From NCBI RefSeq assembly GCF_017656155.1, contig NZ_JACDOH010000006.1, positions 1 through 64,000 of the forward strand: DNA of 64,000 nucleotides. The letters run 5' to 3'. The first letter of the stretch is position 1; every line of letters starts with the position of its first letter. The notes beneath the pieces were generated by a model, which was not told the origin of the DNA, ran no database searches, and was given only the letters and a program-made list of their open reading frames with translations. The stretch comes from Thermosyntropha sp. GTDB lineage: Bacteria > Bacillota > Syntrophomonadia > Syntrophomonadales > Syntrophomonadaceae. The translations under genes and the position numbers were made by a program. This document shows positions 33,178 through 42,892 of this stretch, piece after piece.

Positions 33178-33444
33178 ACTAAACAAATATATCAAGTCAA
33201 TATCCTGTGAAATGCGATGAAAAAGTAAAGTAGGTTTGTGGAATTATCCAGAGAGGAGATGCCGTAGGCTGGAAGCATCTCTATAAGGAAGCAAACTGAA
33301 GTTCACTTTGGAGCACCCGGCTGAAACATTTGCAAGTAGGTTGTGGCGGAACTCTCACCGTTAAAAGAGAGGGGATATCGGATAAAACCTGTATCCTTTA
33401 AAGAGCGGGCCTTAATGGCAAATTGGGTGGTACCGCGGGAAGAT

Positions 33445-33487
33445 AAAAGCTTCTCGTCCCATAGGGATGAAAAGCTTTTTTTATTTA
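33445..33487 (+). terminator. First T-box terminator
   Basis: AAAAGCTTCTCGTCCC pairs with GGGATGAAAAGCTTTT, followed by a T-run. The 5' arm includes the part of the T-box module that would otherwise pair in the antiterminator. Confidence 0.85.
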
Positions 33488-33557
33488 AGGTAAGGTTATA
33501 TCCCGTATCCTTAAAAGAGCGGGCGTTTTGCCAAATAGGGTGGTACCGCGGGAGCAT

Positions 33558-33599
33558 AAAACCTCTCGTCCCTTATTTAGGGATGAGAGGTTTATTTAT
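33558..33599 (+). terminator. Second T-box terminator
   Basis: AAACCTCTCGTCCC pairs with GGGATGAGAGGTTT, followed by ATTTATT. It lies 22 bases before the aroF start codon and shares the CTCGTCCC arm with the first terminator. Confidence 0.8.
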
Positions 33600-33620: not shown

Positions 33621-34463
33621 ATGAAAAATTTAGCGGCTAAATACGGCAGAGAGATGCTGGTTTTACGCTCCAGTAAAAAAGATAATACGGTGATAAATAT
33701 AAAAGGGTGTGCTATCGGAGGAGAGGAGATTGTTGTAGTAGCTGGACCCTGTGCAGTAGAAAATGAGGAAATCTTAAAAGAAACGGCATTTAAGGTTAGA
33801 GGATCAGGTGCTGTTATTCTGAGGGCTGGTGCTTATAAACCTAGAACTTCTCCATACAGCTTCCAAGGTCTGGGAGAATCTGGACTTAAGATACTGGCAA
33901 AGATAGGAGAAGAAATGAATATGCCGGTAGTAACTGAAGTTATGGATACAGAGGATATACCTTTAGTAGCTGAATATGCTGATATTTTACAGGTAGGTGC
34001 ACGCAATATGCACAATTTTGCCCTTTTGCGCAAATTAGGAAGAATAGATAAACCGGTAGTGTTGAAACGTGGACTTTCAGCTACGATTGAGGAGTGGCTT
34101 TTAGCGGCAGAATATATATTAGCCGGAGGCAATGAAAAGGTTATTTTGTGTGAAAGAGGTATAAGAACTTCTGAACCATGGACCCGAAATACCCTGGATT
34201 TGTCAGCTGTGGCTCTGGTTAAGGAGTTGTCTCATTTACCTGTTTTAGTTGATCCAAGTCATGCAACTGGTATAAGAAATTTGGTTATGCCAATGGCACG
34301 GGCAGCAGTCGCAGCTGGTGCAGATGGCATTATGGTTGAAGTGCATCCCAATCCTGATAAGGCCTTATCAGATGGGGAACAGTCGTTGACTCCGCGCGAT
34401 TTTAGCCTCATGATGCGTGATCTCGAAGAAATAGCTAGAGCTTGCCGGAGGAGGCTGAGATAA
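33621..34463 (+). CDS. aroF: 3-deoxy-7-phosphoheptulonate (DAHP) synthase, class I-beta, short form
   Basis: This 280-residue enzyme condenses phosphoenolpyruvate and erythrose 4-phosphate, the first step of the shikimate pathway. Motifs include [10 protein letters not shown] (near residue 37), [19 protein letters not shown] (near 70), [13 protein letters not shown] (near 123), and LVDPSHATG (near 208). Class I-beta enzymes often carry an extra N-terminal ferredoxin-like domain for feedback control; here only about 30 residues precede the barrel, so that domain is absent. The ATG at 33621 follows AAAGGGTGG; a longer open frame back to 33528 runs through the T-box terminator and is not coding. 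It is followed after one base by pheA. Confidence 0.93.
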
Positions 34464-34464
34464 G

Positions 34465-35277
34465 GTGTGTTATGCGGTTTTAGGACCTAAAGGGAGTTTC
34501 AGTGAAGATGCAGCTCATCTATACTGGCCGAAGGCAGATGAGATATATGTAGCATCGAGTATAAATGAGCTTTTTGAAAGGTTGATTAACGGCGAAGTAG
34601 ATGATATTTTAACTCCTATTGATAATACTCATGCAGGATCAATTGACAATACTATACAGGCTTTGAATGATTATAATGTGAGTATACATGGCGAGATAGT
34701 GCTTGATATCGAGCAGTGTTTATTGAGCAGTCATGATTATAAAATAGAGGAACTGGAACTTTTGGTATCCCATCCTGCTGCTCTTATGCAGTGCAGCAGT
34801 TTTATAGAAAAAAATCTTCCCCATATAAGAACTGAGATAACTTCAAGCACTACCCGTGCTGTGCAAATAGTTAAAGAAGAGGAGAAAAAGGCAGCGGCAA
34901 TAGGTAGCAGATATGCAGCTTCTCTTTATGATATGAAAATATTGTTTTCAGGTATAGAGAACAGTTTTAATAAAACTCGCTTTATTCATGTAAAGAGAGC
35001 GGAAGAGATTAAATATAAAGGAGAAAAAGGAAGCCTTATTTTTAGCCTGGATAATAAACCTGGTGCATTATACAAGGCTTTACAGGTTTTTGCCCGAAAA
35101 AATATAAATTTAGTTAAAATTGAGTCCCGGCGCAGTTGTAAAATAGAAGATAGTTTTGCCTTTTATATTGAATTTGATAATTCTTTTTCCAGGGTTTCTG
35201 TTAAGGAAATATTAGATGATTTAGCTGTATACAGCAAGGATATAAAATTTTTGGGTATGTACAAGAAGAAGGGATAG
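34465..35277 (+). CDS. pheA: Prephenate dehydratase
   Basis: This 270-residue enzyme converts prephenate to phenylpyruvate in Phe synthesis. It opens with YAVLGPKGSFSEDAA, has TPIDNTHAGSIDNTIQAL (near residue 52) and the NKTRFIHV catalytic TRF motif (near 173). A C-terminal ACT domain (about 190-265) has GALYKALQVFARKNINLVKI followed by ESRR in place of the common ESRP; it should bind Phe for feedback inhibition. GTG start at 34465 after CGGAGGAGG. The Phe T-box upstream fits this role. Confidence 0.93.
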   Translation: MCYAVLGPKGSFSEDAAHLYWPKADEIYVASSINELFERLINGEVDDILTPIDNTHAGSIDNTIQALNDYNVSIHGEIVLDIEQCLLSSHDYKIEELELLVSHPAALMQCSSFIEKNLPHIRTEITSSTTRAVQIVKEEEKKAAAIGSRYAASLYDMKILFSGIENSFNKTRFIHVKRAEEIKYKGEKGSLIFSLDNKPGALYKALQVFARKNINLVKIESRRSCKIEDSFAFYIEFDNSFSRVSVKEILDDLAVYSKDIKFLGMYKKKG

Positions 35278-39939: not shown

Positions 39940-40125
39940 CAATCCCTGCTGTGTGCGTGAAAAGTCGTAAGTTTTTGCCAACACCAACATAAAGGGAGCC
40001 TGGACTCTGTATGTGGCGTAGAAGCCTCTTGTTTTGAGGGGACCTACAAAGCATGCAGGAGGGCACCCACTTGACCTTTGAGGTTTAAACTACGACTTGT
40101 CACGGCTCGGTGGGGTTTTTTGTTT
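39940..40125 (+). ncRNA. ssrS: 6S RNA
   Basis: This 186-base stretch begins AATCCCTGCTGTGTGCGTGA and ends with CTCGGTGGGG followed by TTTTTT. The ends pair (AAAAGTCGTA with TACGACTT, plus flanking GC pairs) and enclose a long irregular hairpin with the open central bubble of 6S RNA. The position between aspS and tcdA/yrvM is the same as for 6S-1 RNA in Bacillus subtilis. 6S RNA binds housekeeping RNA polymerase by imitating an open promoter. Confidence 0.87.
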
Positions 40126-40895: not shown

Positions 40896-41576
40896 ATGGC
40901 TGGTACTGACAAATTCCTGAATGAAATATATGATGTTTTATTAGCTTTTTTTGGACCTAGGGGGTGGTGGCCGGGAGAAAGCAGATGGGAAATAATGGTT
41001 GGAGCAGTTTTGACTCAGGTAGTAGCCTGGAAAAATGTTGAAAAGGCGATTGCTAATTTGAAAAAGGAGGGGTTATTAGAGCTGGAAAGCCTTTATGAGG
41101 CTGAAGAAGAGAAAATAGCTGATCTTATAAAGCCGGCTTTATATCACAGGCAGAAGGCTAAAAAGCTTAAGGTTTTATCCGGATATGTAATGGATAATTA
41201 CCATGGTGATTTAGATTTAATGTTTAAAAAAGACCTTTATGTTTTAAGAAGGGAGCTTTTAGACCTCTGGGGGATAGGACCTGAAACAGCAGATTCTATT
41301 TTGCTTTATGCTGGGGATAAGCCTGTATTTGTAGTAGATGCTTATACAATAAGGATATTTTCGCGTTTAGGCATGGTCCATGAAAAAATAAGCTATAAAG
41401 AAATGCAGGATTTAATTCAACGAAATTTAGCTTCAGATGTTCAGATGTTCAACGAATACCATGCTTTACTGGTAGCTTTAGGAGCAAATTACTGCTTGAA
41501 AAGTAATCCTAAATGCAAAATTTGTCCTTTAAATAATTTTTGCAATTATTTTAAAATAAGCAGGAAAAATAAATGA
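40896..41576 (+). CDS. HhH-GPD DNA glycosylase, endonuclease III-like, probably monofunctional
   Basis: This 226-residue base-excision glycosylase has a helix-hairpin-helix [16 protein letters not shown], catalytic Asp148 in FVVDAYT, and a C-terminal [4Fe-4S] motif [17 protein letters not shown] (C-x6-C-x2-C-x5-C). In endonuclease III the hairpin reads GVGRKTA and its Lys performs the lyase reaction; here that position is Glu130. The GIGPETAD version resembles MagIII-type 3-methyladenine glycosylases, so an alkylated purine is a likelier substrate than oxidised pyrimidines. It overlaps the open frame of paaK at its stop codon. Confidence 0.85.
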
Positions 41577-41590
41577 GGAGGTCGAATAAT

Positions 41591-42892
41591 TTGATTTACT
41601 GGGATCAGGAAAAAGAATGTATGCCATTAGAGCAGTTGAGGGAATTACAGCTTAGAAGGCTTAAAGAAACAGTTTATCGCGTATATGCGTTTGTTCCTGC
41701 CTATCAAAAAAAGATGGATGAAGCAGGGGTAAAGCCTGATGATATAAAGACTTTAGATGACCTAAAAAAACTTCCTTTTACTACCAAGCAGGATTTAAGA
41801 GATAATTATCCGTTTGGTTTATTTGCGGTTCCTATGAGCGAGGTAGTTCGCATTCATTCTTCTTCGGGAACGACAGGCAAACCTACGGTAGTAGGTTATA
41901 CCAGAAAAGATATAGATATTTGGGCAGAACTTATGGCACGTGCTTTGATAAGTGCGGGTGCAACTAGACATTCGGTTATCCAGAATGCCTATGGATATGG
42001 ACTTTTTACTGGTGGCTTAGGGGTTCATTATGGAGCAGAAAAAATAGGAGCTTCAGTTATTCCTAGCTCGGGGGGAAATACAAAGAGGCAGATTATGCTG
42101 ATGCAAGATTTTGGAACTACTATTTTAACCTGTACTCCTTCTTATGCTTTGTTTATGTATGAAGTAATGAAGGAAATGGGGATAGATCCTGCTGATTTGA
42201 AATTGAAGGCAGGTATATTTGGGGCTGAGCCTTGGTCAGAGAATATGCGCCGTGAAATTGAAAACAACCTTAAAATAGATGCTTATGATATATATGGTTT
42301 GAGCGAGATAATAGGACCTGGAGTTGCCATAGAGTGTTCTTATAAAAATGGCTTACATATTGCAGAAGATCATTTTATTGCTGAAATTATTGATCCTGAA
42401 ACAGGGGAAGTTTTAGAAGATGGTAGGCAAGGGGAATTAGTAATTACTGCTATAACGAAAGAGGCTTTACCAATTATAAGATACAGAACCCGGGATTTAA
42501 CTGCTCTTGATCGCACTCCCTGTGCATGTGGCAGAACCCATGTGCGTATGCAGAAGGTCTTAGGTCGTTCTGATGATATGGTTATAATAAGGGGAGTAAA
42601 TGTTTTCCCATCTATGGTAGAAAGTGTTTTGCTTAATATCCCGGGTGTTGAGCCGTATTACCTTTTAGTAGTTGATCGCCGGGGTAATTTGGATGAATTG
42701 GAAGTACATGTAGAAGTATCAGAAAAGATTTTCAGCGATGAAATAAGGAAATTGGAAGAGTTAGAAGATTTGATTCGTCGTGAACTGGAAAGCGCATTAG
42801 GTATAGGTGTGAAAGTGCGTTTGGTTGAGCCTAAGTCTATTGAACGCAGTGAGGGCAAAGCTAAGCGGGTTATTGATAGGAGAAAAATTTAA
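41591..42892 (+). CDS. paaK: Phenylacetate-CoA ligase
   Basis: This 433-residue adenylate-forming enzyme activates phenylacetate (or another aryl acid) to its CoA thioester. The ATP-binding motif [15 protein letters not shown] is near residue 92, [13 protein letters not shown] near 235, and YRTRDLT near 300. The TTG at 41591 is chosen because AGGAGG lies nine bases upstream; an ATG at 41573 overlapping the glycosylase stop is open but would place that site inside the gene. In anaerobes paaK-ACT pairs are linked to aromatic amino acid fermentation with indolepyruvate oxidoreductases, which are not in this window. Confidence 0.92.

Follow-up and report, generated by a model that had tools for sequence, protein, structure and literature searches.

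Described T-box arrangements

T-box leaders with duplicated terminator-antiterminator elements were reportedly described by Vitreschak et al. in 2008 (RNA 14:717); we know of no account, in that work, of a 5' strand shared between modules or of arrays of three to four modules. The glyQS T-box of Clostridium acetobutylicum has two codons and a single platform. In the complete tandem T-boxes of trp, ilv and thrS leaders, as presented in the accessible part of PMC12452182, each unit has its own sensor, and contiguous riboswitches fall, in the same part of that source, into two groups, complete tandem units and adjacent aptamers on a single platform. Neither shared strands nor T-box arrays of three or four modules were found described in a literature search (most subscription papers were beyond its reach), and neither is mentioned in the accessible parts of PMC7583486, PMC7778990, PMC2494555, PMC12452182, PMC9413887 and PMC9481103.

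The leader studied here lies in a stretch of 64,000 nucleotides of Thermosyntropha sp. (contig NZ_JACDOH010000006.1, assembly GCF_017656155.1), hereafter the window, and precedes an aroF-pheA operon. With RF00230 T-boxes it shares a Stem I with specifier, Stem II, a Stem IIA/B element, Stem III, the T-box bulge and a mutually exclusive terminator, but it differs from them by a second expression platform and by an additional helix in which one 5' strand can pair with either of two partners. It has one sensor and two antiterminator/terminator modules in common with the class of 2008; indeed, one Stem I followed by two modules is what is said to define the duplicated terminator-antiterminator class. 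The two-codon glyQS T-box is the reverse of this arrangement, both departing from the rule of one sensor and one platform. The leader is a T-box of a structural class reportedly named in 2008; its apparent novelty lies in the way a single sensor attends to both modules. Two serial terminators and one amino acid are shared with the complete tandem T-boxes of PMC12452182, which carry a Stem I for each module whereas the window leader carries a single one; with one sensor and two platforms, it fits neither of the two classes in the accessible part of that source.

Anatomy of the aroF-pheA leader

The initial annotation, made from the sequence, had read the region as a single Phe-specific (TTC) Stem I ahead of two complete modules before aroF-pheA, and had proposed a covariance-model search. 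This search, with the Rfam T-box model, bears the reading out, as do the protein families of the two genes (Table 1). Indeed, positions 33208-33464 give a full RF00230 match of 112.6 bits (gathering score 93), and the downstream stretch searched alone gives a second match (33443-33576) of 40.4 bits (E 6.8e-8), so that module 2 alone stays below the gathering score. No second Stem I was found in the window and genome searches, the model's Stem I being skipped in the downstream match, which agrees with the single sensor of the initial annotation. The same two matches were recovered in the whole-genome search, where nine T-boxes lie above the cut-off among 11 matches in total, the other two being the leader's second module and a weak one of 14.6 bits elsewhere. 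The T-box sequence GGTGGTACCGCG starts at 33426 and again at 33539, at the spacing of 113 bases first noted. Each module had also been credited with its own hairpin; this stands for the short Stem III, of which each module has one, but not for the preceding helix, which has one 5' strand for both.

Table 1. Positions of the leader elements and of the first two genes in the window.
Feature	Position	Strand	Evidence
Stem I, sole copy	33214..33314	+	RF00230 alignment; AGAGAG distal loop motif
Specifier TTC	33302-33304	+	Inside the single Stem I
Stem IIA/B element	33346..33371	+	Sequence; possible pseudoknot of CTCTC (33352-33356) with GAGAG (33367-33371)
Shared 5' strand of the pre-module helix, GGATATCGG	33373..33381	+	Pairs with 33388-33396 and with 33502-33510
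Module 1 3' strand, CCTGTATCC	33388..33396	+	Pairing with the shared 5' strand in 96.3% of 296 cells
Stem III, module 1 (GCC UUAAU GGC)	33409..33419	+	Sequence
Antiterminator 1 with T-box TGGGTGGTACCGCG	33424..33461	+	Rfam; -13.1 kcal/mol; UGGU fits the ACCA of tRNA-Phe
Terminator 1	33445..33486	+	Hairpin 33445-33479, then T-run; -18.4 kcal/mol
Module 2 3' strand, CCCGTATCC	33502..33510	+	Without a conserved local 5' partner; fits 33373-33381
Stem III, module 2 (GGC GUUUU GCC)	33522..33532	+	Sequence; columns 221-222 x 242-243 of the consensus fold
Antiterminator 2 with T-box AGGGTGGTACCGCG	33537..33573	+	Within the 40.4-bit T-box match; -11.8 kcal/mol
Terminator 2	33559..33599	+	15-pair hairpin 33559-33593, ATTTATT tail; -25.9 kcal/mol; terminator scan
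aroF-type DAHP synthase, first gene 3' of the leader	33621..34463	+	PF00793, E 7.4e-83
pheA, prephenate dehydratase with ACT domain	34465..35277	+	PF00800, E 3.1e-48

In each module, antiterminator and terminator share CTCGTCCC, so that the two folds are mutually exclusive as judged from sequence and energies, and the terminator is the more stable of the two in both modules (-18.4 against -13.1 and -25.9 against -11.8 kcal/mol). A consensus terminator scan recovered the inner part of terminator 1 (33454-33470), and ATTTATTG stands directly 3' of the terminator 2 hairpin. The region holds three terminator-like sites compared to 0.3 in shuffled sequence; promoter-like sites in the region are not above chance (3 compared to 1.9 in shuffles). 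In the consensus fold, columns 10-12 x 23-25 of the Stem IIA/B element vary on both sides. The gene next after aroF and pheA in the window is a HemZ gene. As the initial annotation had proposed, such a leader would most likely make two serial decisions and tighten the repression of aroF-pheA.

A 5' strand with two alternative 3' partners

Between the IIA/B pseudoknot and Stem III lies a helix whose 5' strand is present once and whose 3' strand is present before each module. This helix was followed in an alignment (A1) of 37 leaders (25 of the order, plus 12 picked from elsewhere for having the 5' strand), and in a set of 54 leaders made of these 37 and of 17 further leaders; two members of the window type's sequence cluster that are without the 5' strand motif (L058 and L072) are in neither pairing set. 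The shared 5' strand is present in all 54 leaders, the 12 from outside the order having been preselected for it. In the alignment, pairing of the shared strand with the module 1 strand is as given in Table 1, and pairing with the module 2 strand reaches 98.9% of 270 cells and falls to 26-59% when the strands are slid by 1 to 3 columns. The corresponding duplex energies in the window are -10.6 kcal/mol with module 1 and -11.6 kcal/mol with module 2.

Changes on both sides were seen in four of the eight pairs between the shared strand and module 2, although these compensatory changes represent few independent events. Indeed, (i) the A/G of column 31 tracks the U/C of module 2 column 206 (AU in 24, GC in 11 and GU in two of the 37 leaders, one of the two GU cells being that of L083, which is otherwise without the strand), a covariation that could go back to one event on the tree, with A in families f1 and f3 and G in f2 and mostly outside; and (ii) in L020, GG of the 5' strand is replaced by AA and CC of the module 2 strand by UU, module 1 being unpaired there.

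All but one of the 54 leaders have the module 2 strand, 34-47 nt 5' of T-box 2, and across these 53 leaders the spacing of the two T-boxes ranges from 101 to 228 nt. In four leaders (L136, L137, L139 and L141), additional sequence separates terminator 1 from the module 2 strand. Uninterrupted runs of at least six pairs with the module 2 strand are offered by the shared strand in 53 of 53 leaders and by the local linker in five; the run with the shared strand is longer than the local one in 48 leaders and equal in four. A local 5' partner in the linker was tried and rejected, the best run upstream of the module 2 strand being at chance level in the 53 leaders (4.09 compared to 4.15 in shuffled linkers). 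These pairings suggest that the second decision point may borrow the RNA strand of the first, by which one sensor could serve both.

On this basis, the leader is probably (at a rough probability of 0.6) a transcriptional Phe T-box in which one tRNA sensor governs two successive decisions, joined by a strand-exchange relay. The single Stem I/II platform would hold uncharged tRNA-Phe, whose ACCA end would stabilise antiterminator 1, and RNA polymerase would then read through terminator 1. As module 2 emerges, 33502-33510 would displace 33388-33396 from the shared strand 33373-33381, so that module 1, no longer needed, would be looped out and antiterminator 2 would get the position that antiterminator 1 had relative to Stem I. 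The tethered tRNA, or a replacement on the same Stem I to which the test would be handed over, would be tested again, with termination, we infer, at either of the two sites. aroF-pheA would be switched on only if both tests were passed, as an AND in series, which could give less leak and a sharper response. If correct, the relay would explain how one sensor drives several expression platforms, would be a natural case of one ligand tested repeatedly during transcription, and would offer a simple route to steep RNA switches as well as a clear target for strand swaps.

The main alternative, which we regard as rather unlikely, is that the modules are autonomous and act in series without strand exchange, a flexible linker letting the tethered tRNA reach each of them and the module 2 strand being a leftover or part of a local hairpin. 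The short Stem III owned by each module in the window would suit this arrangement, as would the good local hairpin of module 2 seen in some multi-module loci and the downstream CGGG, for which pairing with the CCCG of the module 2 strand is possible in 87.8% of cells; however, the CCCG/CGGG hairpin, tested as a rival partner, has no both-side changes. Autonomous modules are also at odds with the conservation of the module 2 strand despite so variable a T-box spacing, with a linker whose upstream partner is no better than chance, and with module 2 strands that lengthen the shared helix past module 1's own.

Multi-module T-boxes in other genomes

When 84,980 species genomes were scanned for a spaced T-box pattern, which is exact and yields a lower bound, 98 stretches with T-box motifs in close succession were returned. 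One of them (L118) was judged a false match, as it is a periodic repeat in which leader features were not seen. By script, two motifs are in register in 89 stretches (L118 included), three in six and four in three. Firmicutes, Chloroflexi and Synergistota are represented among the 80 of 98 matches listed. Lysinibacillus is the source of two four-module arrays (L100 and L116), the third being L128; all three precede an NSS-type transporter gene (by likeness) and have a single TTC specifier. Rfam finds one full T-box at each of the arrays L040, L100, L116 and L128, and the later modules of L116 and L128 give sub-threshold matches.

Some loci depart from these layouts. An extra T-box motif lies about 260 nt 5' of the double-module motif in L037, L111 and L131, and in L131 Rfam finds two full T-boxes, which makes it a leader with two sensors and three T-box modules. 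The array of L074 is interrupted before its fourth module by more than 100 nt of extra sequence and has an apparently decayed fifth T-box. Double-module leaders also precede AMP-binding genes resembling phenylacetate-CoA ligase in L068 (by Pfam), L070 and L089 (both by likeness), with a TTC specifier read in L068 and L070 only; a phenylacetate-CoA ligase-like AMP-binding gene is encoded in the window too (41573-42892), without a nearby T-box match at the gathering score.

In other multi-module leaders, Stem III takes the role of the shared helix, as examined in a test set of 60 loci placed by hand in 18 groups on the basis of sequence clusters and target genes. L047, whose chain was mis-called by the script (its second module, at +107, comes from the motif list), was excluded from the pairing tests, and L099, which has three modules without the NSS-type front, was excluded from the pair count of the NSS-type arrays. 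In register, 39 of 60 loci have a module 2 strand whose fit to the 5' strand of module 1 exceeds that of unrelated module 2 strands (p<=0.05), and 412 of 474 pairs are kept at the best shift; in an earlier in-register run, for which the 5' arms had been cut crudely, p<=0.1 was reached in 31 of 60 loci with one control and in 32 with the other. Since such a fit can be kept by descent in young duplicates, pairs beyond module 1's helix were tested in addition. By the 18 groups, inner pairs amount to 42.5 compared to 23.7 and the extension past module 1's own helix (capped at six) to 16.6 compared to 4.8, each with p=0.0005, the minimum for 2000 draws. Over loci, 47 pairs lie past the end of module 1's helix where 17.0 are expected, and at least one extra pair is found in 22 of 60 loci where 9.8 are expected. 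In eight NSS-type arrays, 99 of 110 pairs between the single 5' strand and modules 3 and 4 are retained, although these copies are young and a duplication starting inside Stem III would leave such strands without selection.

Other measures were less informative. Unconstrained duplex energies between the fronts of modules 1 and 2 gave no clear signal, base composition dominating, and wide-window helix scores, dominated by base composition as well, had median p of 0.14, 0.19 and 0.28 with p<=0.05 in 7, 12 and 8 of 60 loci; both measures scarcely distinguish true pairs from mismatched ones. Of 171 differences between the module 1 and module 2 strands, 58 leave the pairing intact; a uniform null predicts 41.0 and a null with transition bias 73.8, so that the excess does not survive the second null. 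In some loci, among them L041, L046, L073, L078, L097 and L119, the local hairpin of module 2 scores at least as well as the shared helix, so the shared-strand design is not universal. We propose only tentatively, and at somewhat less than even odds, that multi-module T-boxes could form a recurring relay class with up to four modules per sensor, each displacing its predecessor from a shared strand, in which the tethered tRNA would be re-tested as a kinetic proofreading of charging.

Fit of both modules to one kind of tRNA

The tRNA-Phe encoded in the genome has the anticodon GAA, the end GGC-A-CCA and the discriminator A73, and fits both the TTC specifier and the UGGU of the two modules. The N of UGGN pairs with the tRNA discriminator, which is G73 in Trp, Ser, Asn and Asp tRNAs and A73 in Phe, Tyr and Leu tRNAs, the tRNA-Phe being the one of these checked in the window's genome. 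After identical loci and L118 had been dropped, 100 loci were compared, in which the script read one specifier in 61, an ambiguous one in three and none in 36. The N of module 2 follows the specifier in all 61 loci with one readable specifier: it is T in the 58 Phe, Tyr and Leu leaders (TTC 46/46, TAC 6/6, CTC 6/6) and C in the three Trp leaders (TGG 3/3, including the second module of L047). A73 being the discriminator for most amino acids, loci with T weigh little as evidence. The N of module 1 agrees with the specifier except for a C in one TTC leader (L039) and in one CTC leader (L094). Without regard to specifier, the N of module 2 is C in nine of the 100 loci, in eight of which module 1 also has C, and the genes behind these nine are trpD (three), trpE, serC (two), an aspartate-tRNA(Asn) ligase and class V aminotransferases (two). 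The other 91 loci, whose genes were named in part only, have T in module 2, L039, L041, L055 and L094 among them having C in module 1.

The discriminator base that tracks the specifier, taken with a 3' strand that fits the single 5' strand, favours the reading that the same tethered tRNA would serve module 2. That module 2 is instead read by a second, free tRNA, through an antiterminator without Stem I, appears improbable: antiterminator 2 is complete and its UGGU is kept, as this would need, but a second specifier is absent, a tRNA selected by its discriminator base alone would not be Phe-specific, and isolated antiterminators bind tRNA weakly.

Conservation and age of the duplication in the order

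Matches of at least 65% identity, to which the set is limited, were taken as aroF orthologues and were found in 40 of the 63 genomes of the order. Their 40 leaders comprise 22 found by pattern and 18 fetched; one (in G055) is cut by a contig end, which leaves 39 assessable. The comparison with relatives that the initial annotation had called for shows two modules in all 39 and one-module leaders in none. Three of the 25 pattern hits (in G004, G005 and G039) precede a different gene, which for the single hit tested (L013 of G005) is HemZ, so that G004 and G005 each have two such leaders. A plasmid search with the aroF region gave no match.

The view that the modules are a duplication holds, with the correction that the duplication is old, the modules of one locus being less alike (0.80) than module 2 between species (0.85). 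Over the 40 leaders, mean identity is 0.799 between modules 1 and 2 of the same locus, 0.839 for module 1 between loci and 0.851 for module 2 between loci; since identity is lower within than between loci, the duplication seems to predate the split of the families, and the module copies seem not to have been homogenised. In just six of 40 loci does module 2 resemble its own module 1 more closely than it resembles, on average, the module 2 copies of other loci, which indicates that the strand was not copied by homogenisation.

In eight of the 39 leaders (L144-L146 and L148-L152), the T-box of module 1 has drifted behind GGGTGGT (e.g. to ATAGCG or ATTGCG) with an intact module 2, and in one (L143) the T-box of module 2 has drifted instead. 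Such drift, after or near UGGU, is what might be expected if one module were a relic or a mere back-up terminator; we consider this very improbable, as both modules are kept in 39 of 39 leaders, all nine drifted boxes retain GGGTGGT, and a dead antiterminator ahead of a live terminator would silence the operon. A hybrid antiterminator, in which the tRNA-bound T-box strand of module 1 would pair with the CTCGTCCC of module 2 and block terminator 2, is hardly credible: the consensus fold does pair columns 111-113 x 287-289, as it would need, but this pairing is trivial, the repeats being identical there, and the module 2 T-box is nearly invariant in alignment A1, of which this model has no need.

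Other RNAs

A leuS T-box leader with the specifier CTC (G000:C3:75859-76142, locus L004; leuS by NCBIfam) is located outside the window. Its Stem III contains a whole tRNA-Ala(GGC) gene (L004 1658-1733), between arms like GGACAAA / TTTGTC. All 15 relatives picked for a long T-box match have the same tRNA-Ala, and CTC was read in 8 of 16 leaders. Processing of the tRNA-Ala would cut the sensor of the leuS leader from its antiterminator; nothing like a tRNA gene inside a T-box Stem III was found in a literature search. In the window itself, an ordinary 6S RNA is encoded at 39940-40120 (RF00013, 89.8 bits).
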